A DNA stretch of 7,649 nt, from positions 19,547-27,195 of the forward strand of contig JALWLW010000005.1 in NCBI GenBank assembly GCA_027081065.1, given 5' to 3'. This DNA comes from Campylobacteraceae bacterium (GTDB taxonomy: Bacteria; Campylobacterota; Campylobacteria; Campylobacterales; Sulfurovaceae). Made by a program: the position numbers and the translations under genes. This document shows positions 70 to 7,649 of the stretch, one piece after another (position 1 is the first letter of the stretch; each line of letters starts with the position of its first letter). The notes below the pieces were generated by a model. That model was not told the DNA's origin. It made no database searches and saw only the letters and a program-made list of their open reading frames with translations.

Positions 70-211
70 ATCCCACAATACAATGCTTTCAAAAGGTTTT
101 AAAAAGATAAAAAAATTTAAAAAAATCACAATTAGAACACATTATTATTGCTATACTATCTCTAGGGACATAAGAAAATCAAATACTATAAAATATAAAG
201 GAGATAAACTT

Positions 212-868
212 ATGAAGACAACTACTTTGAGAAACCTAATGCTTTTAAGCTCTGTAACACTATTTACGGCTTGTTCTAATAACTCACCAAAACCAGAAAA
301 ATTAACTGCTTTAGAAATTATTGGTGTTGATTCAACTATAAATCAAATGGAGACACGTACTTTACCTATGGCTAAAACTTATCCTATCGAGCAACAATTT
401 TTTACTTCAAATAGAGAGAGTTCATCAAGACGGGTTAACAATTATGTAAAAAATCATTTAACCATAGTGAATGATATAGAACAAAATGCAAAAAAGCTTT
501 TAGGTATTAAATATGTTTGGGGTGCAACAGGACCAAATACGTATGACTGCTCAGGATTTACACAAAAAATCTATCGTGATGCTGGTATTAATATTCCTAG
601 AGTTTCACGTGATCAAGCAAGAGTTGGTCAGTTTATTTCTTATAATAATTTAAGACGAGGAGACATGGTTTTTTTTGATACTAAGAAAAAGAGGTCAGGA
701 AAAGTTTCTCATGTAGGAATCTATTTAGGTAATGGTAACTTTATTCATGCCAGTTCAGCTGCTAAAAAGATTGTTATTTATAATTTTAATGATAAAACTT
801 TTTATAAAAAACGTTTTTTATGGGGTCGAAGAGTAATTAATGATAGTTATCATGTAGCTTCTTTATAG
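212..868 (+). CDS. NlpC/P60 family cell-wall peptidase, lipoprotein
   Basis: Predicted 218-residue peptidoglycan endopeptidase that would cut stem peptides in the periplasm. The first 21 residues form a lipoprotein signal: a short basic start, a hydrophobic stretch, and lipobox LFTAC with lipidated Cys21 (Phe at -3 is slightly atypical). A spacer of about 75 residues leads to the NlpC/P60 domain at about 95-215. It shows the family's catalytic residues: Cys113 in DCSGF, His167 in SHVGIY and His179 in FIHASS, plus the RRGDMVFF strand motif, so it looks active. ATG 212 is chosen because AAAGGAGA (197-204) sits just upstream and the signal peptide begins there; extending to ATG 83 would add 43 basic residues before the signal. 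It resembles Spr/MepS-type and related small lipoprotein hydrolases, but the exact subfamily and bond cut are not clear. A terminator follows directly. Confidence 0.9.
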   Translation: MKTTTLRNLMLLSSVTLFTACSNNSPKPEKLTALEIIGVDSTINQMETRTLPMAKTYPIEQQFFTSNRESSSRRVNNYVKNHLTIVNDIEQNAKKLLGIKYVWGATGPNTYDCSGFTQKIYRDAGINIPRVSRDQARVGQFISYNNLRRGDMVFFDTKKKRSGKVSHVGIYLGNGNFIHASSAAKKIVIYNFNDKTFYKKRFLWGRRVINDSYHVASL

Positions 869-878
869 ATATAGACTT

Positions 879-920
879 AAGGGATTTGTTAAACATAAAT
901 CCCTTATTAGTAGTTTTTTT
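879..920 (+). terminator. Rho-independent terminator after the NlpC/P60 gene
   Basis: A perfect 9 bp stem, AAGGGATTT (879-887) with AAATCCCTT (897-905), has a 9-nt loop and is followed after a short gap by seven T residues (914-920). It begins 11 nt after the stop codon and should end the transcript of the peptidase gene. Confidence 0.8.
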
Positions 921-930
921 AATATTTAAG

Positions 931-958
931 TATAATTTTATTTTTTATGTTTTATAAT
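931..958 (+). promoter_or_regulatory. Candidate promoter for the 49-residue membrane protein
   Basis: TATAAT occurs at 931-936 and again at 953-958, within a T/A-rich tract between the terminator and the small gene starting at 997. A new promoter is expected here because the preceding transcript ends at about 920. No clear -35 hexamer is visible, which is common for AT-rich Campylobacterota promoters. Confidence 0.35.
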
Positions 959-996
959 ATTTTAAATTATTAAAAAATATTAATAAGGAGTTGACA

Positions 997-1146
997 ATGA
1001 GAGTAGGTATTTTAGGTATTTTGATGGGTATCACAGTTGCTATGGCATTAAAAAATGATAAATATTTAAGCATGAGAACTGTACGACTCTCTTTGACAAC
1101 AGAGTTAATGGTTATTTTAATTTTTGGTATTATTGAAATCAGATAA
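997..1146 (+). CDS. Small hydrophobic membrane protein, unknown function
   Basis: A 49-residue reading frame opens with ATG six bases after a perfect AAGGAG (985-990). The protein has two hydrophobic segments, about residues 3-18 and 36-47, separated by a basic polar loop (KNDKYLSMRTVR), consistent with a two-pass inner-membrane hairpin protein. It lies between a terminator and a lipoprotein gene, both pointing the same way. No family was recognised. The strong ribosome site and separate candidate promoter argue that it is a real gene; a holin-like or toxin-like role is possible but nothing in the sequence establishes it. Confidence 0.6.
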   Translation: MRVGILGILMGITVAMALKNDKYLSMRTVRLSLTTELMVILIFGIIEIR

Positions 1147-1162
1147 ATTAAAATTATGAATA

Positions 1163-1227
1163 AATTTATAAATTAGATAAACACTTTAACAAGCTAAACA
1201 GTTCAATCATTCTATAATTTATAAATT
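1163..1227. repeat. Two copies of a 12 bp AT palindrome upstream of the small lipoprotein gene
   Basis: The self-complementary 12-mer AATTTATAAATT occurs at 1163-1174 and 1216-1227, 53 bp apart (about five helical turns). The second copy overlaps a TATAAT hexamer (1213-1218) that could be the -10 box for the gene at 1249. They may be operator half-sites or chance AT-rich sequence. Confidence 0.3.
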
Positions 1228-1248
1228 ATTAAACCAAGGAATATAAAA

Positions 1249-1446
1249 ATGTATAAAAAGATTTGCACACTATATATAATTGTTTTAGGGTTAACAGCAT
1301 GTACTCAAACTCAATCAGAACCGAAACCAGAGGTTCAAACAGCTGTCAAAATACCTGTAAAAAATGAAAATTTAAATAGTGAATCTCAAGAATTTATTCC
1401 TGAACATATACGACGTTCTCACATAGAAGTTGTACCACACAATTAA
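1249..1446 (+). CDS. Small lipoprotein, unknown function
   Basis: A 65-residue protein with a lipoprotein signal: MYKK start, hydrophobic stretch from about residues 8-16, and lipobox LTAC with lipidated Cys18. The mature part is only 48 residues, polar and rich in Glu, Gln, Pro and Asn, with no recognisable domain. AAGGA (1236-1240) lies eight bases before the ATG. It is probably membrane-tethered in the periplasm, perhaps an envelope accessory protein, but the sequence does not show a partner or activity. It is transcribed toward the NAD salvage genes, with a weak hairpin (1455-1470) between them. Confidence 0.65.
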   Translation: MYKKICTLYIIVLGLTACTQTQSEPKPEVQTAVKIPVKNENLNSESQEFIPEHIRRSHIEVVPHN

Positions 1447-1454
1447 GAAAACTA

Positions 1455-1487
1455 TGTTAGACTTCTAACAGCTCAAAAGGATTTTTT
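1455..1487 (+). terminator. Weak hairpin with delayed T-run
   Basis: TGTTAG (1455-1460) pairs with CTAACA (1465-1470) around a 4-nt loop. A run of six T residues follows only at 1482-1487, 11 nt after the stem, so termination would be weak. It may separate the lipoprotein transcript from nadM or act in the nadM leader. Confidence 0.25.
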
Positions 1488-1488
1488 G

Positions 1489-1563
1489 ATGCTGTACTAC
1501 TCTAGGGATAGACCCATAAAGAGTAAATTTAATTTCGCTAAGGAGCTTAGTGATGAAGTATGA
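1489..1563 (+). CDS. Possible 24-residue leader peptide overlapping the start of nadM
   Basis: A short frame starts with ATG seven bases after AAAGGA (1476-1481) and stops at TGA 1561-1563, ten bases past the nadM ATG (1553). The peptide is charged (starts MLYYSRDRPIK) and matches nothing recognised. Its reading through the nadM ribosome site (AAGGAG 1540-1545) would allow translational coupling or leader-type control. Evidence is only the ribosome site and the overlap, so it could be chance. Confidence 0.35.
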   Translation: MLYYSRDRPIKSKFNFAKELSDEV

Positions 1564-2560
1564 TTACCTCATTTTTATAGGCAGATTTCAGCCATTTCAC
1601 ACAGGACACGAGAGTGTCATTCGCAAAGCATTACAATTGTCAGACAAAGTTATTGTCTTAGTAGGTTCGGCATATCAGCCACGTACCGTTAGAAACCCTT
1701 GGGATTTCAATGAACGAGAAGCATTAATGCGTTCTGTTTTTTCAGATGAAGAGAACAGACAGATATTAGCTTTTCCACTACTTGACTACACTTATAATGA
1801 CCAACTATGGATAAAATCCGTACAACAACTAGTCGCTGGTGTTGTTCACTCTAAGATAGCTTCAAAACCGAAAATAGGTCTCATAGGTCATCAAAAAGAT
1901 GAAACCTCAGACTACTTAACCCAGTTTCCACAATGGGAGAGAGAAGAGGTTGAGAACTACAACAACATCTCTGCAACAGATATTAGAGAACTTTACTTTG
2001 ACAACGGTGAGTTAAGCGATGCATTAAATACCAATGTATCCATCGCTTTAGAGAAGTTTAAAAACAGTAAAGCGTATGAGCAGGTACAAAACGAGTTTCA
2101 TTTTGTCAAAAAGTACAAAAGTGCATGGGACAACGCTCCCTACACCCCAATGTTCATAACTGTAGATGCAGTAGTCGTTCAAAGTGGACACATACTCATG
2201 ATAGAGCGAAAAGCACAACCAGGGCGAGGCTTAATGGCACTTCCAGGTGGTTTTTTAGATGCAAATGAAACGCTTAAATCAGCAGTCATTCGTGAACTAA
2301 GAGAAGAGACACGCATAAAAGTACCAGCCCCTGTGTTAGCAGGAAGCATTACCAAAACTCAAGTCTTTGACGACCCATACAGGTCAGCAAGAGGTCGAAC
2401 AGTAACCCATGCCTACCTCATAGAGCTAAAAGGTGACAAACTGCCAAAAGTAAAGGGTGGTGATGATGCAGCCCATGCCTTTTGGGTTCCCTTTGCCGAG
2501 GTGAAGCCTGAGTTGATGTTTGAAGACCATTATCATATTGTTCAGGCGATGGTGGGGTAA
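1553..2560 (+). CDS. nadM: Bifunctional NMN adenylyltransferase / Nudix hydrolase
   Basis: A 335-residue cytoplasmic enzyme with two domains. Residues 1-180 form a nucleotidyltransferase: the IGRFQPFHTGH stretch carries the HxGH ATP-binding motif (His16, His19), and ISATDIR (139-145) is the second signature; it should join NMN and ATP to give NAD. Residues 195-330 are a Nudix domain. Its box at 233-255 keeps the spaced Glu and the REL-x-EE metal-binding core, with Arg where the usual consensus has Gly. Such fusions, known from Synechocystis and Francisella, hydrolyse ADP-ribose in the best-studied cases. ATG 1553 sits seven bases after AAGGAG; GTG 1550 directly before it is only four bases away and less likely. 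It lies upstream of nadV, which supplies its substrate NMN. No NrtR-type regulator gene is present in the window. Confidence 0.92.
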   Translation: MKYDYLIFIGRFQPFHTGHESVIRKALQLSDKVIVLVGSAYQPRTVRNPWDFNEREALMRSVFSDEENRQILAFPLLDYTYNDQLWIKSVQQLVAGVVHSKIASKPKIGLIGHQKDETSDYLTQFPQWEREEVENYNNISATDIRELYFDNGELSDALNTNVSIALEKFKNSKAYEQVQNEFHFVKKYKSAWDNAPYTPMFITVDAVVVQSGHILMIERKAQPGRGLMALPGGFLDANETLKSAVIRELREETRIKVPAPVLAGSITKTQVFDDPYRSARGRTVTHAYLIELKGDKLPKVKGGDDAAHAFWVPFAEVKPELMFEDHYHIVQAMVG

Positions 2561-2864
2561 TAAATGGCTAAGAAAAACAAACATTTTTTTTCTAATATGA
2601 TTATCTCATTTTTGATAATGCTAATTATGGCGATAGATATATTTTTTCTAAAAAATAATGGTTTATTGTTTCTTATACCCATTGTTGTTATAGGTTTGGT
2701 TCATATCATTTGTGAAAAATGTAGAAATTGGACTTTTAGGATTAATACCTTGTTTGTTTTGTCTTTTTTTATATTGATGTTTGATATTGCTACGGCTTTG
2801 TCTAATCAATATGAGAATTTTGGTAAAGAACAAAAATATAATAAGATGGTTGGGTAGAGAATGG
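2548..2864 (+). repeat. Imperfect 20 bp direct repeat at two stop/start junctions
   Basis: The bases at 2548-2567 and 2845-2864 match at 16 of 20 positions (shared GATGGT, GGGTA and ATGG blocks). Each copy encodes a C-terminal Met-Val-Gly, a stop codon, three spacer bases and the next gene's ATGG. The G-rich core doubles as a weak ribosome site. The repeat brackets the first small membrane gene and could mark how it was gained. Confidence 0.5.
2564..2857 (+). CDS. Small three-pass membrane protein, unknown function
   Basis: A 97-residue protein that starts three bases after the nadM stop, so it is probably translated by coupling using the G-rich end of nadM. It has three hydrophobic segments, about residues 9-28, 33-48 and 61-79, separated by short loops, with a basic N-terminus (MAKKNKH) and a charged C-terminus. 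The N-terminus is likely cytoplasmic. The middle loop has two cysteines (CEKC, about 51-54). The gene is far more AT-rich than nadM or nadV, with long T tracts, which suggests a later insertion into the locus. No family was recognised, and a link to NAD metabolism is only positional. Confidence 0.6.
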   Translation: MAKKNKHFFSNMIISFLIMLIMAIDIFFLKNNGLLFLIPIVVIGLVHIICEKCRNWTFRINTLFVLSFFILMFDIATALSNQYENFGKEQKYNKMVG

Positions 2865-3061
2865 AATGGATATTTGAATTTTTTATAAATATTTTTTTTC
2901 GTGTTATCCTTTATGGAGTAGGATATTGGACTCTTAAAATTTTGACTTTTGGAATATTCACAGATGGAATTCAAAAAGATAGTTTTTTTAATGAAATGAT
3001 TTTCATATTAGTAGGTATAGGTGTTATATCAGGAGTTATATATTTAATTACAATTCCGTAG
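2861..3061 (+). CDS. Small two-pass membrane protein, unknown function
   Basis: A 66-residue protein starting three bases after the previous stop, within the second copy of the repeated junction. Hydrophobic stretches lie at about residues 7-32 (interrupted by Arg14 and Lys26) and 45-64. It ends in YLITIP with almost no cytoplasmic tail. AT-rich like its neighbour and probably co-transcribed and co-translated with it, so the two may work as a pair. Its TAG stop (3059-3061) is part of the GTAG of the following REP-like hairpin, so the repeat abuts or defines the C-terminus. Function unknown. Confidence 0.55.
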   Translation: MEWIFEFFINIFFRVILYGVGYWTLKILTFGIFTDGIQKDSFFNEMIFILVGIGVISGVIYLITIP

Positions 3062-3186
3062 GGTGGGTCATACCCACCACTAATGTGAATTGGCAAATAA
3101 AAAAGTTGTGCCGAAAGGCTTTAATTGATAAGGAAGATTTAAAAGAGGATAAATTCAAATTGGTGCGTTAGAAAACAGCACCCTAC
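3058..3186. repeat. BIME-like pair of inverted REP hairpins
   Basis: The left unit is GTAG (3058-3061) followed by a perfect 7 bp hairpin, GGTGGGT (3062-3068) with ACCCACC (3072-3078). The right unit is its mirror: hairpin GGTGC (3162-3166) with GCACC (3178-3182), stem extended by GTT/AAC past one bulged base, then CTAC (3183-3186). The outer 8 bp, GTAGGGTG and CACCCTAC, form terminal inverted repeats. GTAG (or GGAG) followed by a hairpin is the layout of REP sequences mobilised by RAYT (REP-associated Y1 transposases), and paired inverted REPs make a BIME. No RAYT gene is in the window. The element fills most of the gap between the small membrane genes and nadV, and could attenuate or stabilise the transcript. 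Confidence 0.65.
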
Positions 3187-3239
3187 ACGTTCAAAACCGA
3201 AAGACGGTAAAGAACATTAAAACATACGAAGGATTTTCG

Positions 3240-4547
3240 ATGAAAAACATTATTTTAAACACAGACAGCTACAAATCAAGTCACTATTTACAATACCCAC
3301 CAAAGAGTGAGTATGTCTCTTCGTACATCGAAGCACGTGGTGGTGAGTATGACAAAACATTATTTTTTGGATTACAAGCATTTATTAAAGCCTATCTTTT
3401 AACACCATTTACGCAAGAAGATGTAGACGAAGCCCAAGCTATTATGACAGCTCACGGTGTGCCGTTTAACAAAGAGGGGTGGCAATACATTTTGGACACC
3501 TACAATGGTTACTTGCCTTTAGAGATTTCAGCCGTAAAAGAGGGGATGTTAGTTCCTTTGAAATCTCCATTGGTTCAAGTGGTCAACACTGATGCTAATG
3601 TGCCATGGTTGACCTCTTATATGGAGACAGCCTTGCTTAGAGCCGTTTGGTTTCCTACAACAGTAGCAACGGTTTCGTATGAGATTAAAGAGATAATCAA
3701 AAGCTATTTAGAAGCCACAAGTGACAATGCAGAAGCCCAATTACCCTTTAAGTTGCACAACTTTGGAGCAAGAGGAACATCGAGCGAAGAGTCGGCAATG
3801 TTGGGTGGCATGGCTCACTTAGTAAACTTTCAAGGAACGGATACCCTTTCAGGGGTAATGGGAGCTAGAAGATACTACGGTGCAGATATGGCAGGTTTTT
3901 CCATTCCAGCCTCTGAACACTCTACTATGACCTCTTGGTTAAGAGAGGGCGAGAAAGATGCCTATGCCAATATGGTAGAGCAGTTCGCAGGAGAGGGAAA
4001 ACTTTTTGCTGTGGTTTCTGACTCTTACGACATCTACAACGCAGTAAGCAACATTTGGGGTAAAGAGCTTAAAGAGAAAGTAAAAGAAAGTGGAGCAACC
4101 TTGGTCATTCGCCCAGATTCTGGAGAACCTAGAGAGATAGTTTTAGAAGTCATGAAACGTGTCTACGAAGCCTTTGGAGGGTACAAAAACTCAAAAGGGT
4201 ACATTGTCTTAGACGATTGTGTACGCATCATCCAAGGTGATGGAGTCGACACAGAAGCGATACGCGATATATTGGAGATTTTGAAAAACGAAGGTTTCTC
4301 TGCTGACAACATCGCCTTTGGAATGGGTGGAGGGTTATTACAAGCCCCAAACCGAGACACCTTCAGATTTGCCATGAAAGCCTCAGCCATCTGCGTCGAT
4401 GGAGAGTGGAGAGATGTCTACAAAGACCCTATCACCGATGCAGGAAAGCGTTCTCAAAAAGGACGATTGGCTTTGACAGAGGAGTTTGAAACGGTAAGAG
4501 TTGAGGAGTTAGAGGGGCGAGAGAATTTGTTGAATGTGGGGGAATAG
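3240..4547 (+). CDS. nadV: Nicotinamide phosphoribosyltransferase
   Basis: A 435-residue cytoplasmic enzyme that combines nicotinamide and PRPP to give NMN, which NadM then adenylates. It aligns over its whole length with NadV/NAMPT by recall of the human protein: LNTDSYKSSHYLQYPP at the N-terminus; FGARGTSS (175-182) with the ring-stacking Phe175 and Arg178; GTDT with Asp201, the residue that favours nicotinamide; EHST with the catalytic His227; SDSYD at 260-264; IRPDSG (290-295) and QGDGVD (332-337) for phosphoribose; GMGGGLLQ (361-368) for phosphate. All expected key residues are present. Slightly shorter than human NAMPT (491), with the end lost in the C-terminal tail. ATG follows GAAGGA (3228-3233) by six bases. 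Separated from nadM by two membrane genes and a REP pair, so it may have lost tight co-transcription with nadM. No clear terminator follows. Confidence 0.95.
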   Translation: MKNIILNTDSYKSSHYLQYPPKSEYVSSYIEARGGEYDKTLFFGLQAFIKAYLLTPFTQEDVDEAQAIMTAHGVPFNKEGWQYILDTYNGYLPLEISAVKEGMLVPLKSPLVQVVNTDANVPWLTSYMETALLRAVWFPTTVATVSYEIKEIIKSYLEATSDNAEAQLPFKLHNFGARGTSSEESAMLGGMAHLVNFQGTDTLSGVMGARRYYGADMAGFSIPASEHSTMTSWLREGEKDAYANMVEQFAGEGKLFAVVSDSYDIYNAVSNIWGKELKEKVKESGATLVIRPDSGEPREIVLEVMKRVYEAFGGYKNSKGYIVLDDCVRIIQGDGVDTEAIRDILEILKNEGFSADNIAFGMGGGLLQAPNRDTFRFAMKASAICVDGEWRDVYKDPITDAGKRSQKGRLALTEEFETVRVEELEGRENLLNVGE

Positions 4548-4640
4548 TAAAAAAGAGAATGGGTAGTGTTTCGGGGGCGATGTTTTTATTGTGGGATTTG
4601 AGAGGGGTTTTTGTTCTTGAATCGCTGTGTATCTAGTAAA

Positions 4641-4782
4641 CGTTTCACTTTACTTCACTTTACTTTTAAACTTTTACTTCTTCTTAGCTACCAATAACGC
4701 TTTGTTGGTGTTTTGTCTTTTTGAACAACTTCTTAAATTTACTGAAACGAAAATGGCTTAAATTGGTTTCAATGCGTTTCAG
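4641..4782. repeat. Candidate transposase-binding array at the left end
   Basis: GTTTCA-type sites occur at 4641-4647 (CGTTTCA), 4743-4749 (TGAAACG, inverted), 4765-4771 (GGTTTCA) and 4775-4781 (CGTTTCA). CTGAAACG (4742-4749) and CGTTTCAG (4775-4782) are perfect inverted repeats. TTCACTTTAC is tandemly duplicated at 4644-4663. One outer site, a gap of about 95 bp, then a tight group of inner sites recalls the L1 - gap - L2, L3 plan of phage Mu, whose sites also contain a GTTTCA core as I remember it. Binding by this element's own transposase is inferred. Confidence 0.5.
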
Positions 4783-4814
4783 CGAACAACAAAACGAACT
4801 ACTTTTTAAAAATA

Positions 4815-4845
4815 TTTACAGTTAAAATGTGAACTGTGATATTAT
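4815..4845 (+). promoter_or_regulatory. Candidate promoter and dyad for the 143-residue gene
   Basis: TTTACA (4815-4820) and TATTAT (4840-4845) form a -35/-10 pair with a longish 19 bp spacer. An inverted repeat, ACAGTT (4818-4823) and AACTGT (4832-4837), lies between the two boxes, where a bound repressor would block polymerase. The 10-mer TTACAGTTAA found here (4816-4825) recurs at 5362-5371 beyond the gene. Confidence 0.45.
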
Positions 4846-4866
4846 TGATTTAAAAAGGTATCTAAA

Positions 4867-5298
4867 ATGAGTATTGTAAAGTTTACTTTAATGAGTGCAA
4901 TTATTGCAGCTATAGTTATTCCAAGCTTAAGAGATAAAAATAGAAATCAAGTTAGCACTCCGATTGTTACTTATACAGAAGAAGAAAGAATTGAGTTAGA
5001 TGAGCTGAAAAATATTCAAAAGAAAAAAGAGAAAATATCGGAGTCTAAAAGAAATAAATATTTAAGTGTTGTGAGAAAAGAAAGGAAAATTATGGATGTA
5101 GTTTGGACTAAAGATACTCAACTATGGGCTTCTGTTCTTAACGATGGTCAAAATAGAAATGGATATGCTGACTATTTGTGTGTTCTTTCTAAAGAATATA
5201 ACTTCAAGTATACTTTCACGATTCTTCTATTTGATGCACAAAAAGCAACAAGAGAAGAATATGTACAGCTAGGTAGACACCGATGTGTTTCACAATGA
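4867..5298 (+). CDS. Membrane-anchored protein of unknown function, possible prophage cargo
   Basis: A 143-residue protein. Residues 4-19 are hydrophobic (FTLMSAIIAAIVIPSL region) and may be an uncleaved anchor or a signal peptide. A Lys/Glu-rich segment at about 38-75 looks helical, possibly coiled-coil. The C-terminal part (75-143) is a compact mixed region with two cysteines (about 105 and 140) that could form a disulfide if exported. AAAGG (4854-4858) precedes the ATG by eight bases, and the gene has its own candidate promoter. It lies between the candidate left end and the leftward repressor, in the opposite direction to the repressor, a place where lysogen-expressed cargo could sit. Its last codons overlap a TGTTTCAC site. 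No family was recognised; a host gene at the prophage edge is the alternative. Confidence 0.65.
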   Translation: MSIVKFTLMSAIIAAIVIPSLRDKNRNQVSTPIVTYTEEERIELDELKNIQKKKEKISESKRNKYLSVVRKERKIMDVVWTKDTQLWASVLNDGQNRNGYADYLCVLSKEYNFKYTFTILLFDAQKATREEYVQLGRHRCVSQ

Positions 5299-5351
5299 AT
5301 CCCATAGTATATAGGATTACACCTACTGAAACACGTGAAACAACTGAAACG
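5286..5351 (-). promoter_or_regulatory. Control element B: GTTTCA iterons, AT dyad and inverted site
   Basis: On the plus strand TGTTTCAC (5286-5293) is followed by a 33 bp gap containing TATATAGG, then three TGAAAC motifs exactly 9 bp apart (5327, 5336, 5345). Read on the minus strand this equals element C (6632-6696): the same three iterons, the same 33 bp gap with CCTATATA, and the same terminal GTGAAACA. By hand the two agree at 43 of 65 positions without gaps, and at 31 of 35 in the motif parts. It lies between the convergent 3' ends of the 143-residue gene and the repressor gene. It may be an operator/promoter pointing left or a DNA-looping or transposase site. Confidence 0.6.
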
Positions 5352-5383
5352 AATTTATTTGTTACAGTTAATTGTTAAAAAAA

Positions 5384-5806
5384 CTATAGATGTGTTATCT
5401 CTTTGTATTTTTTCAATTTGTCTTTTACTATACTTAGAAATTCACTCGGTGCATACTGTAATAGGTTTATAATCTCTTCTATATCGTCAGCATGATTAAA
5501 TTGTTGAGTATTAATATTGATGTTACCATTCAAGGTAGTATTTCCATCTCCTATAACTCTCATCTTCTCACCATTTTTTATACTATTTTCTTCAATATGG
5601 CTATTTTTATCTCCATATAGTACCCAATCAAGTGAAATACTCTCATTTTGAGCAAATTCTTTTAATCTTTTTGAAGGTATCTTGTCCCTACTTTTCCATG
5701 TGTCTAGTGTGGAGTACTTAATCCCCCATTTCTCGGTCATCTCTCTATCTGTATTAACCCTTAAAACTTGTTTTATTCTATTTAAAATGGGGTCTATTTT
5801 TCTCAA
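5384..5806 (-). CDS. CI-type phage repressor without peptidase domain
   Basis: A 140-residue DNA-binding protein, probably the lysogeny repressor. Residues 1-65 match the bacteriophage CI repressor HTH domain: ILNRIKQVLRVNTDREM, the turn-recognition part around YSTLDTWKSRDKIPS (31-45), and the closing ISLDWVLYG (57-65). A linker (66-104) is rich in Gly, Asn, Thr and Ile, and a short helical tail (about 105-138) probably serves for oligomerisation. There is no S24 LexA-like peptidase domain, so RecA-driven self-cleavage is not expected. The start is TTG 5806-5804, supported by an AAGGA (complement at 5813-5817) six bases upstream; the next Met, residue 23, would cut the HTH. Divergent from the early operon, it likely binds the intervening operators and its own promoter. 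Confidence 0.85.
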   Translation of the reverse strand: MRKIDPILNRIKQVLRVNTDREMTEKWGIKYSTLDTWKSRDKIPSKRLKEFAQNESISLDWVLYGDKNSHIEENSIKNGEKMRVIGDGNTTLNGNININTQQFNHADDIEEIINLLQYAPSEFLSIVKDKLKKYKEITHL

Positions 5807-5830
5807 ATTTGTTCCTTTGTTGTTTGAATA

Positions 5831-5918
5831 TGCTCAAAAGTACTTGACATACTCTCAAAATGAATGTATACTTCTTTTATCACTTCATAAAAGTATAACA
5901 AAAAGAAGTGAAGAAGTA
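5831..5918. promoter_or_regulatory. Divergent operator region with repeated AAGTA half-sites
   Basis: AAGTA or its complement TACTT appears at 5838-5842, 5841-5845 (together palindrome AAGTACTT over the -35 box), 5869-5873, 5891-5895 and 5914-5918. CTCAAAA is directly repeated at 5833-5839 and 5854-5860, two helical turns apart. TATACTT (5867-5873) and AAGTATA (5891-5897) form a wider dyad, and TACTTCTT/CACTTC (5869-5886) mirror GAAGTG/AAGAAGTA (5905-5918). The layout over a promoter beside the CI-type gene suggests repressor binding sites. Confidence 0.55.
5844..5872 (+). promoter_or_regulatory. Consensus early promoter (rightward)
   Basis: TTGACA (5844-5849), a 17 bp spacer, and TATACT (5867-5872) make a near-perfect housekeeping-sigma promoter, the best in the window. 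Transcription would start near 5879 and run into the early genes at 5956 and 6174. It is overlapped on both boxes by the AAGTA/TACTT repeats, so repression in the lysogen is expected. Confidence 0.75.
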
Positions 5919-5955
5919 CAATAAAAACGCGAACAAAGAGAAAGGAGCGTGTGTT

Positions 5956-6174
5956 ATGGTGGCAAAGATGAAGAGAAGGGTTTTAGAGCCTGTGGTTAAG
6001 GTTGGTTCTAGAGTAGGGATTAAAAGAGAGTCTAATTGTAAATATGCTGATATGTATTTGTATATAAAAAACATTTACACTAAAAATGGGAACACCTGTG
6101 TTGATTTGGTTAGCAGAGAGGGGAAACTTTTGGTGATTGGTATGCGTGTTTCGTATTTGAAAAAGGCTCGATAA
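5956..6174 (+). CDS. Small basic early phage protein, unknown function
   Basis: A 72-residue, strongly basic protein, first gene behind the early promoter. ATG 5956 is eight bases after AAAGGAG (5941-5947); a GTG at 5908 is in frame but has no ribosome site and lies in operator repeats. After a basic start (MVAKMKRRV) the sequence alternates short hydrophobic strands and turns (VGSRVGIKR, MYLYIKNIYT, CVDLVSREG, LLVIGMRVSYL), consistent with a small beta-barrel, possibly SH3/KOW-like, but no family is recognised with confidence. Its stop overlaps the next start as TAATG, so translation of the two is coupled. A role in early control or host takeover is plausible from position only. Confidence 0.65.
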   Translation: MVAKMKRRVLEPVVKVGSRVGIKRESNCKYADMYLYIKNIYTKNGNTCVDLVSREGKLLVIGMRVSYLKKAR

Positions 6175-6350
6175 TGAGAAGAGGATTAAGTAGAGTTCAG
6201 ATTGGGATTCTTTATGAGATAAAAGAGAGAGCAAAAAAAGGGAATGTGATACTAGGAGTAAAACAGCTAAAAGAAGCTAGAAGACTACTGTTGCTAAATG
6301 TGGCGAAAACTAGCTTTCCTATTTATCGTCTCCTTTTAAAAACGTATTGA
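6174..6350 (+). CDS. Small basic helical early protein, unknown function
   Basis: A 58-residue frame whose ATG shares its A with the TAA of the previous gene (TAATG), a classic coupling overlap. The product is Lys/Arg-rich and mostly helical in appearance: MRRGLSRVQIGILYEIKERA, then VKQLKEARRLLLLNVAKTS. It could be a nucleic-acid-binding or protein-binding peptide. No family was recognised. No strong ribosome site of its own is seen, in line with coupling. A 10 bp hairpin (6366-6389) follows 15 bases later and may mark the end of this transcript. Confidence 0.5.
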   Translation: MRRGLSRVQIGILYEIKERAKKGNVILGVKQLKEARRLLLLNVAKTSFPIYRLLLKTY

Positions 6351-6365
6351 TAAAAAATAGATTTG

Positions 6366-6389
6366 TAGAGTCCTATAAGTAGGACTCTA
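6366..6389 (+). terminator. Strong hairpin after the early genes
   Basis: TAGAGTCCTA (6366-6375) and TAGGACTCTA (6380-6389) form a perfect 10 bp stem with a 4-nt TAAG loop. Only scattered T residues follow (GTTTATCTT), so it may be a partial terminator, an RNA-stabilising hairpin, or a two-fold protein site. Confidence 0.45.
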
Positions 6390-6420
6390 TCAAGTTTATC
6401 TTGTGATATATAACATTTCT

Positions 6421-6624
6421 CACCCATGCGTCCGTGGGTGACATATACATCTGTATATGAGTAATTACTTTAATAAAAAAAGATGACCCCTGGATAGCGT
6501 GGGGGAGTCTTGGGGCTTTTGCCCCTTAATGAATCTACAGATGCCCCCTTATGAGGTGTAAAAAACTTCTTCGTAAAAAGTTCTCCTTGTAATTAAACTC
6601 ATGAGGGGGTTTCTGTGGGTTTTT
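6421..6624 (+). ncRNA. Candidate structured non-coding RNA region
   Basis: This gene-free stretch holds a chain of foldable units: CACCCATG/CGTGGGTG (6421-6440, one G-U pair); CATATACA/TGTATATG (6442-6459); palindrome AGTAATTACT (6460-6469); GACCCC with GGG-A-GTC (6485-6509, one bulge); GGGGC-TTTT-GCCCC (6512-6525); and a long closing helix of 19 positions, 6537-6555 with 6598-6616 (two mismatches, one G-U), that encloses a small AACTT/AAGTT hairpin. A T-run (6620-6624) follows the last helix, as for a plus-strand transcript end. No ORF of note is present. It could be an independent RNA, the 3' end of the early transcript, or a DNA structure; no known RNA family was recognised. Confidence 0.4.
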
Positions 6625-6630
6625 AAAGAG

Positions 6631-6718
6631 TGTTTCAGTTGTTTCACCTGATTCACTTGCTCATGTTGCCTATATATAGGTATTTGAAGTGAAACAGAAA
6701 AAGAGTGGATTTGTTTCA
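6631..6718 (+). promoter_or_regulatory. Control element C upstream of the ner-transposase operon
   Basis: Three iterons 9 bp apart (GTTTCAGTT 6632, GTTTCACCT 6641, GATTCACTT 6650) are followed by a 33 bp gap containing the palindrome CCTATATATAGG (6669-6680), then GTGAAACA (6689-6696). One more TGTTTCA lies at 6712-6718, just before the ribosome site of the 39-residue ORF. TATATA (6671-6676) is a likely -10 box for rightward transcription, with the iterons covering the -35 zone. It is an inverted relative of element B at 5286-5350. A Ner-like protein or the transposase could be the ligand. Confidence 0.6.
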
Positions 6719-6742
6719 CTTGTTTTTAAAAAGGAGCAAGAT

Positions 6743-6862
6743 ATGAGAAATAAAGATTTGAAATACTTAATAAAAAGACACAATGAAGAGATGGTCAGAG
6801 CAATCATACGGCTGTATCACAGTAACTATACCAAAGGAGGAAACATTGAAAAAAGAGTTTAA
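6743..6862 (+). CDS. 39-residue basic peptide ahead of the Ner-like gene
   Basis: ATG 6743 lies six bases after a perfect AAGGAG (6731-6736). The predicted peptide (MRNKDLKYLIKRHNEEMVRA at its start) is short, basic and helical, without a recognised family. It ends 17 bases inside the next gene, whose AAAGGAGG ribosome site is inside this frame, so ribosomes finishing the peptide could reinitiate on the Ner-like gene. It may be a true small protein or mainly a leader that couples translation. Confidence 0.5.
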   Translation: MRNKDLKYLIKRHNEEMVRAIIRLYHSNYTKGGNIEKRV

Positions 6863-7088
6863 AGACATGACGTTAAGAGAAAGATTTAACGCTAAGTGTT
6901 TAGCCGTTACCAAGTATGCGAAGGTAAATAACCTAAGTCAGCCTATGTTGAGTGACATTCTAAACGGTAAAAGTAAGACCACAGCAAAACGACAGACTAA
7001 AAAAGGTTCTGCTCGTAAGATATATGCTCAACTTAAAAAAGATGACATTTATATAGGTGCTTTACCTTGGGAGGATGTGGTATGCTAA
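6846..7088 (+). CDS. Ner/Cro-like small DNA-binding regulator
   Basis: An 80-residue protein with a helix-turn-helix at about 17-46 (TKYAKVNNLSQPMLSDILNG), a basic linker (TTAKRQTKKGSAR) and a C-terminal helix followed by DDIYIGALPWE. Placement right before a MuA-like gene matches Ner, the Mu early regulator that turns down early and repressor transcription. The start is TTG 6846, five bases after the excellent AAAGGAGG (6833-6840). Upstream in-frame ATG 6783 has no ribosome site and lies inside the 39-residue ORF; ATG 6867 is a weaker alternative. The stop overlaps the transposase start by seven bases, so the two are coupled. Its binding sites may be the GTTTCA iterons at 6632-6658, but this is inferred from position only. 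Confidence 0.7.
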   Translation: MKKEFKDMTLRERFNAKCLAVTKYAKVNNLSQPMLSDILNGKSKTTAKRQTKKGSARKIYAQLKKDDIYIGALPWEDVVC

Positions 7089-7649
7089 AAACTTCTGATT
7101 TAGAAAAGAGTCTACAAGTCTCTTCAAGATGGGTAAGAAAAAAAACAGAAGAAGCTTTTGACCAAGGTAAAACCTCCATAAAACTAAAAGAACGAAACTT
7201 TAGCTTTGAGCTTGTTAATGGAGCGTATGTTTATGAAGAGCTTCTACCTAAAGTAATAGAGACAGAAGAGAATGAAAGCTCTAGGGCTTGGAAGTTGGCT
7301 TCTGAAGAGAAACAACGTGAAGCCTTAGATAAAGAGCGTTTGATTCGTGACTATAAGAACCGACCTAACAATGAGAATTGGAAAAAGTTTCTTTTAAGGG
7401 TTGAGCGTAAATATAAGCGTATTAAACCTACAAAATCAAAATTGTTTCGTTGGTTGAAAGTGGTGGATGATTGCGAAGCCAATGGGTTGGTGGCACTGCA
7501 TGAACTGCTTGATACACGGGGTAAGACCTCTTCTAATCGGTCTTATACCGATGCTCAATATGAGTATATGGAAAAGCTTATCCTTGAAGACCCTGAGATA
7601 CAAGCCGTGCATGTTCACCAATACATGGAGCAAGATTATGGCAAAGATG
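7082..7649 (+). CDS. MuA-like transposase, N-terminal part (cut by window edge)
   Basis: An open frame of 189 codons runs off the right edge. ATG 7082 follows GGGAGG (7069-7074) by seven bases and overlaps the Ner-like gene. The visible part corresponds to the end-binding region of Mu-type DDE transposases: an N-terminal winged-helix-like segment (LEKSLQVSSRWVRKKTEEAF, then a strand pair to about residue 58), a charged helical connector (about 60-95), and a second HTH-like part where KSKLFRWLKVVDDCEANGLV and a DTRGK motif (about 117-145) resemble the domain that precedes the catalytic core. The Asp-Asp-Glu core itself lies beyond the window, so activity cannot be judged. A TnsB or IstA-type relative is possible, but the Ner-like gene and repressor context favour a Mu-like phage. 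Confidence 0.8.
   Translation, partial: MLKTSDLEKSLQVSSRWVRKKTEEAFDQGKTSIKLKERNFSFELVNGAYVYEELLPKVIETEENESSRAWKLASEEKQREALDKERLIRDYKNRPNNENWKKFLLRVERKYKRIKPTKSKLFRWLKVVDDCEANGLVALHELLDTRGKTSSNRSYTDAQYEYMEKLILEDPEIQAVHVHQYMEQDYGKD

Follow-up and report, generated by a model that had tools for sequence, protein, structure and literature searches.

In transposable phage Mu, the motif of the enhancer differs from the motif of the end sites, and the Tn7 protein TnsB represses its own operon. Published work describes MuA binding the enhancer through winged-helix domain I-alpha and the ends through I-beta/gamma (PMC3362531), asymmetric TnsB sites in the left and right ends of Tn7 and CRISPR-associated transposons (CAST) (PMC10201428), putative transposase sites L1-L3 at 10, 93, and 124 bp together with R1-R3 in the Pseudomonas D3112-type group (PMC4378225), and four putative transposase sites, at both ends, in Burkholderia KS10 (PMC2628397). 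Here we analyzed a 7,649-nucleotide stretch (the window) of contig JALWLW010000005.1 from a Campylobacteraceae bacterium. A transposable prophage of Mu/Tn7 type has inserted at the 3′ end of a Sulfurovum-type NAMPT gene; the window contains its left end and, within it, two inverted iteron arrays, B and C. Both arrays are genuine members of an array family whose geometry stays fixed as its sequence changes, and which is tied to the phage left end.

The reverse complement of positions 5286-5350 (array B) and positions 6632-6696 (array C) match at 43 of 65 positions without gaps, with identical blocks of 16 bases at the start (GTTTCAGTTGTTTCAC) and 8 bases at the end (GTGAAACA). In both arrays, the direct iterons are spaced 9 and 9 bp and are followed by a 33-bp gap and an inverted iteron. 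This resemblance, the starting point of the original prediction, was reproduced: 43 is the best ungapped 65-nt inverted match in 4535-7649 and exceeds all 60 dinucleotide-preserving shuffles (mean 36.7, maximum 40), and a repeat finder applied to 4500-7649 ranks the B/C pair first among inverted repeats (24 nt, 92%). The prediction had three GTTTCA-type iterons in each array; the spacing and the iterons of B are as described, but the third iteron of C reads GATTCA. GTTTCA is additionally found in the prophage left end and at 6713, neither of which had been noted before. The copy at 6713 is a further direct site after the inverted iteron of C that is absent from B. The gap dyad is stronger than in shuffles of the gap for B (p = 0.024) and not significant alone for C (p = 0.30). 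In 11 of 16 arrays the dyad is centered 14-16.5 nt ahead of the inverted iteron; over the 16 the Fisher p is 4.7e-5, with 4 singly below 0.05, in a test that takes the best of many stems and treats the arrays as independent. Because the dyad sequence varies between arrays, the dyad is a possible hairpin or dimer site.

To place the arrays among relatives, designated by locus (L) or genome (G), we took the best 80 of 133 loci from a transposase-profile search of viral sequences, together with genome searches that hit 15 of 398 and 7 of 175 genomes, in overlapping sets. Eight relatives have a transposase identity of at least 40% and sequence that extends to the left end (L153, L155, L156, L178, L179, L180, G281, and G352); all eight carry an array upstream of the transposase, and the more distant G459 and G411 also carry a C-type array. 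In related prophages, whose alignment the original prediction had proposed as a check on spacing, the geometry of C is kept. Five further loci with little or no upstream DNA (G105, L154, L157, L181, and L182) were left out of this count. A search with the C pattern found it in three viral contigs, two of which (L032 and L033) encode Ner-like and transposase-like proteins of 40-59% identity; the third, L031, fits the pattern but shows no related protein and was discarded as a relative. No relative emerged from scans of viral sequences with the transposase fragment and the repressor, from phage records searched with the transposase protein and with DNA 4560-7649, from one genome scan with the transposase, or from one viral pattern scan that included the gap.

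Iterons alone prove nothing, because a triple GTTTCA at 9 bp is frequent in unrelated viral DNA, many of the matches listed being coding repeats. A relaxed array rule gave six matches, none of them accepted, in 1.11 Mb of background not selected by motif (L001-L030 and L185-L252; matches in L012 twice, L196, L199 twice, and L216), and one match in a mononucleotide shuffle of 215.8 kb. A similar layout stands at L167 679-746 (minus strand) of a 65-kb viral contig, with GTTTCAAGC three times, a dyad, and an inverted copy; no Mu-type transposase was recognized by eye among the ORFs (open reading frames) of 4.2 kb near it.

Array C adjoins the start of the transposase operon. In 9 of 11 phages a start codon follows C at 24-62 bp (at 47 bp in the window); the distance is 129 bp in G281, and in G459 the script found no start codon after C. 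This position fits an operator of the transposase operon. A fifth direct site, which would cover the stretch ahead of the start codon, is exact at 24-25 bp past the inverted iteron in 6 of 11 C arrays; weaker candidates have one mismatch at 22-25 bp in three more phages or, in G411, are exact at 28 bp, and L153 has none. Phages whose sequence was read have a Ner-like gene close to C. In L153, C lies between ner and the transposase gene, downstream of ner, and no repressor-sized leftward ORF was seen between the left end and C (L153 84-1145; L032).

The iteron sequence of each phage matches the sites in its own left end. The core is GTTTCAC in the window, L153, L155, and G352, GTTTCGC in L156, GTTTTAC in G281, GTTACAC in L178, CTACCAA or CTACCAC in L179 and G459, and CTACAAC in L180 and G411; the first iteron of L180 and the G411 7-mers are not in register with the cores of the other phages. 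When the iterons of each phage were scored in the first 330 bp of every left end, own iterons accounted for 57 sites in own left ends, whereas permutations averaged 24.9 (p = 1.5e-5). With one phage per core, 3 of 5040 permutations of the seven cores scored as high, and shuffles of the own left end did so in 0 to 8 of 300 cases, depending on the phage; these figures are optimistic because the phages are related. Every left end but that of L178 (10 of 11) has a site at +106 to +108, and further sites near +34, +192/201, and +275/285 recur in several phages. In all 11 phages, left-end sites on one side and C on the other flank the repressor and early region. This fixed left-end layout, together with the match to C, points to one transposition-linked protein that reads both, and the proposal that one protein acts at B and C gained support from the kept geometry of C and from the co-variation of iterons with left ends. 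We consider it probable that the left end, B, and C are bound by the same protein. The idea that B and C form a matched pair bracketing the immunity region was not supported: C is conserved, and the array rule finds nothing at the place of B in 10 of 10 relatives, one of the outcomes that the original prediction had named as counting against B.

Our overall reading, to which we assign a probability of about 50%, is that B and C are one kind of array, read by the protein that reads the left end (likeliest the transposase), with C acting as operator and/or enhancer and B being an extra copy. The array architecture, the recurrence of C, and the match between iterons and own left end are shown, whereas the identity of the protein and the effect of its binding are inferred. 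Each array consists of three direct iterons at 9 bp and one inverted iteron, separated by some 33 bp that carry a central dyad, and the phage protein that binds the fixed set of left-end sites would also read B and C. At C, which precedes the first ORF of the ner-transposase operon by 47 bp, binding would feed back on transposase synthesis, and it could join C to the left end, looping out the repressor and early region. B, accompanying the accessory gene, would bind the same protein. The two roles of C are not exclusive: the chances that it is an operator appear evenly poised, and a role as transpositional enhancer is more tentative.

Several observations weigh against this reading. The array of G411 fits only with two mismatches, the inverted copy is poor in L180, and the iteron spacing is 8 bp in L178. 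No acceptable array was found in G435 (one poor match, not accepted), L183, L185, or L186, nor in the 980 bp of upstream DNA of G125. The relatedness of the phages noted above makes them nonindependent, B is not conserved, and no -10/-35 pair was reported inside C by a scan limited to consensus-type promoters. Of five right ends (G281, G352, L155, L156, and L179), only that of G352 has an iteron near the terminus, 98 bp away, and another motif occupies both phage ends. MuA end sites have their motif at both ends; for the iteron this was not found in these five right ends of relatives, which hold at most one copy near the terminus, and we dropped the idea that the iteron serves as end site on both sides of the phage. 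Because the right ends are nearly free of iterons, the iterons need not be transposase end sites. The second motif, TTTACnGTAAnAATGnGAA, was located at right ends by a regular expression in G281 (two inverted copies) and G352 and by eye in L155 and L156; in L179 it reads, by eye, CAAGAATGTCA. By eye, it is also present at the left terminus, at the inner edge of the left end (window 4813-4833), and downstream of the early promoter. As TTTACAnTnAnAATGnGAA, the repeated motif stands at window 4808-4833 and 6067-6092 and in the right ends of G281 and G352. If the second motif is the true transposase end site, as it may be, the iterons could be read by the N-terminal winged helix of the transposase or by another protein such as Ner.

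As to which protein reads the arrays, we lean slightly toward the transposase. Protein P0009, which has the same start as the window fragment, matches rve (3.8e-15) and Mu-transpos_C (1.4e-8) and so is a DDE transposase with a Mu C-terminal domain, as in Mu-like phages. Profile comparison places the family nearest to TnsB, and fold comparison nearest to TnsB and MuA, the fold being judged from a model of middling quality (pLDDT 77, pTM 0.44) of a P0009 relative, P0005. The N-terminal domain is predicted to be helix-helix-three-strand, as in a winged helix, the fold with which MuA binds its enhancer. The arrays could instead be operators of the Ner-like helix-turn-helix (HTH) protein or another phage regulator that represses the transposase operon and coats the left end, with the transposase using other sites. 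The near absence of iterons from the five right ends and the Ner-like gene close to C agree with such a regulator, as does the finding that in four phages with other cores the recognition helices of Ner look alike, by eye, in pairs (L180/G411 and L179/G459). However, the four phages sharing the GTTTCAC core (window, L153, L155, and G352) have unlike Ner helices by eye, C of L153 lies downstream of ner, and the rigid left-end layout suggests transposition machinery. We regard this alternative as unlikely. Comparison by eye of the recognition helices of the transposase and of Ner, with two Ner proteins found by the script, against the motif gave no decision.

Array B itself admits three explanations. 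As originally described, it lies between two convergent genes, an ORF at 4867-5298, whose last codons and stop are inside B, and the CI-type repressor gene ending at 5384. Close to the corresponding place, L179 (363-420) and G459 each show a triplet of sites spaced 10-12 bp along with a single opposite site; the order is mirrored, and the array rule does not cover it. Relatives of the accessory ORF comprise ten Mannheimia phage records and one plasmid with partial matches, and 3 of 175 genomes, at whose three loci no array was found by the rule. L178 has an unlike accessory ORF between the left end and repressor (585-1157, minus strand, no PHROG match), and L155 has none there. Extra arrays do occur elsewhere: in convergent gaps of L153 (10509, before a leftward terminase gene) and L181 (6152), in L178 (12629; a convergent gap as far as the sequence piece shows, the reverse strand reading, by eye, like the end of a terminase gene), and between plus-strand ORFs in L184 (8859); none was found in prophages G281 and G352, scanned whole. 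As an extra array copy that goes with the accessory gene, B could have a function of its own, a view we hold tentatively. A nonfunctional relic, a copy of C carried in with the accessory ORF, is a somewhat weaker possibility: it would account for the empty place in the 10 relatives, for the missing fifth site, and for the overlap of B with the end of an ORF whose only full-length homologue likewise ends CVS-x, yet the iterons and spacing of B are perfect where the remainder has drifted from C, which suggests selection, and extra copies recur in L153, L178, L181, and L184, although absent from G281 and G352. It is improbable that B and similar arrays in convergent gaps are bidirectional terminators or road-blocks whose gap dyad forms an RNA hairpin. 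The gaps of L153, L178, and L181, the recurrent dyad position, and the strong hairpin dyads of array D in L153 (p = 0.006) and of L178 D and G459 C (p = 0.002 each) would suit a terminator, but the window dyads are weak, C is upstream of genes, the extra array of L184 lies between plus-strand ORFs, and 4535-7100 contains 0 terminator-like sites (1.0 expected), with no stem followed by a T run. A B-C unit as a small transposon was rejected, as no flanking duplication was seen and C recurs without B.

C is not the main early promoter, as the near-consensus site stands beside the repressor gene instead; the suggestion of an antisense promoter found no specific support in the promoter scan. A conserved structured leader RNA lies between the early promoter and C. 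It was aligned from nine sequences, L153 and L178 having been dropped after a first alignment of 11. Across the nine, both sides change in 15 of 18 named pairs, 88.3% of cells pair compared with 66.5% in shuffles, and covariation is 0.722 versus 0.241. A model built from them recovers all nine, L185, and L153 among 31 sources, and an Rfam search of the window at E up to 0.1 gave one subthreshold, chance-like match elsewhere in the leader. An additional long stem, identified by eye, ends just before C; in L153 and L178 the leader RNA does not adjoin C.

The region at 83-4547 encodes host-like proteins (NlpC/P60, a NadM-Nudix fusion, and NAMPT), and NAMPT is closely matched by Sulfurovum and Campylobacteraceae metagenome-assembled genomes, with DNA similarity ending by 4537. 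Phage DNA begins at 4535, where TGTGGGGGAATAGTAAAAAAGAGAATG is the window form of the phage left terminus; an earlier placement of the left end at 4626 was dropped because relatives place it at 4535. The terminus starts TGTGGGGG in L155, L156, L178, G281, and G352, TGTAGGGG in L153, and TGTGC in L179, L180, G459, and G411. Flanks outside it differ from phage to phage, and the L156 contig begins at the terminus. The phage terminus provides the NAMPT ORF with its final codons and stop (4535-4547), so the insertion alters NAMPT at its very end only. The right terminus, ...TACA, was observed only in relatives; the window contains the left terminus. No 5-bp target duplication was found for G281; the G352 prophage (contig C2; L271 and L272) lies between 19-bp direct repeats, which greatly exceed the 5 bp expected for Mu. 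From the terminus, the gene order is left end, accessory ORF, CI-type repressor (minus strand), early promoter, small early genes, array C, Ner-like gene, and transposase.

Table 1. Features of the prophage left end and positions of the leader RNA; coordinates are those of the window unless a locus is named.
Feature	Position	Strand	Details
Prophage left end	4535..4866	+	terminus TGTGGGGG at 4535
Left-end iteron-type sites	GTTTCG ~4568; GTTTCA 4642, 4743 (minus), 4766, 4776		within the prophage left end
Accessory ORF	4867..5298	+	between left end and repressor, stops inside B; phrog_7191 (unknown function)
Array B	5286..5350	-	three GTTTCA iterons 9 bp apart, 33-bp gap with dyad AATCCTATATACTATGGGATT, inverted GTGAAACA
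CI-type repressor	5384..5806	-	PF07022
Strong sigma-70-type site, presumed early promoter	5844..5872	+	TTGACA-17-TATACT, 11/12
Leader RNA, window	6411-6510 (to about 6625)
Array C	6632..6696	+	geometry of B, dyad CCTATATATAGG
Fifth direct iteron	6713..6718	+	24 bp past inverted iteron of C
First small ORF after C	6743..6859	+	39 codons, Shine-Dalgarno
Ner-like HTH protein	6846..7088	+	TTG start presumed from preceding AAAGGAGG; phrog_925 weakly
Transposase, N-terminal part	7082..7649	+	cut by window end; full-length P0009 starts alike (rve, Mu-transpos_C)
Leader RNA, viral loci	L155 1569-1666; L156 1079-1170; L179 1251-1344; L180 1139-1231
Leader RNA, genome loci	L270 1717-1803 (G281); L272 10670-10764 (G352); L281 1399-1491 (G459); L282 6865-6961 (G411)
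Leader RNA, further loci	L185 751-839; L153 439-530

In a broader and rather speculative model, which we think unlikely to hold in full, the transposase or a close partner would bind the internal 3+1 arrays and the left end, coupling left-end occupancy, transposase synthesis, and genome folding through loops between the left end, C, and the extra copies, and perhaps shielding the phage from self-insertion; its specificity would exist in at least six forms, array and left-end sites changing together. Such concerted turnover of many sites, with the geometry unchanged, offers a natural record of protein/site co-change. Whether transposable phages control transposase genes with the very sites that build the transposition complex is directly testable, and this phage set supplies natural protein-site pairs for that question.

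The D3112-type group and KS10 resemble the window phage in having putative transposase sites in the phage ends; the passages of PMC4378225 and PMC2628397 describe end sites only, with no internal arrays seen, and literature listings, at the level of titles and abstract openings, name no such arrays, which does not prove their absence. Tn7 and CAST TnsB are the closest solved relatives of the window-phage transposase, and the array differs from their sites in being internal and apart from the ends, with few or no iterons in the right end of relatives. With Mu, the window phage shares its nature as a transposable phage, the TGT terminus, a DDE transposase with the Mu C-terminal domain, several left-end sites, and an internal element 1-3 kb inside; in Mu, I-alpha of MuA acts on the enhancer and I-beta/gamma on the ends (PMC3362531). 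Unlike in Mu, the array of the window phage precedes the transposase operon rather than standing at the repressor promoter, and it shares its motif with the left end, in a 3+1 geometry and possibly in more copies.

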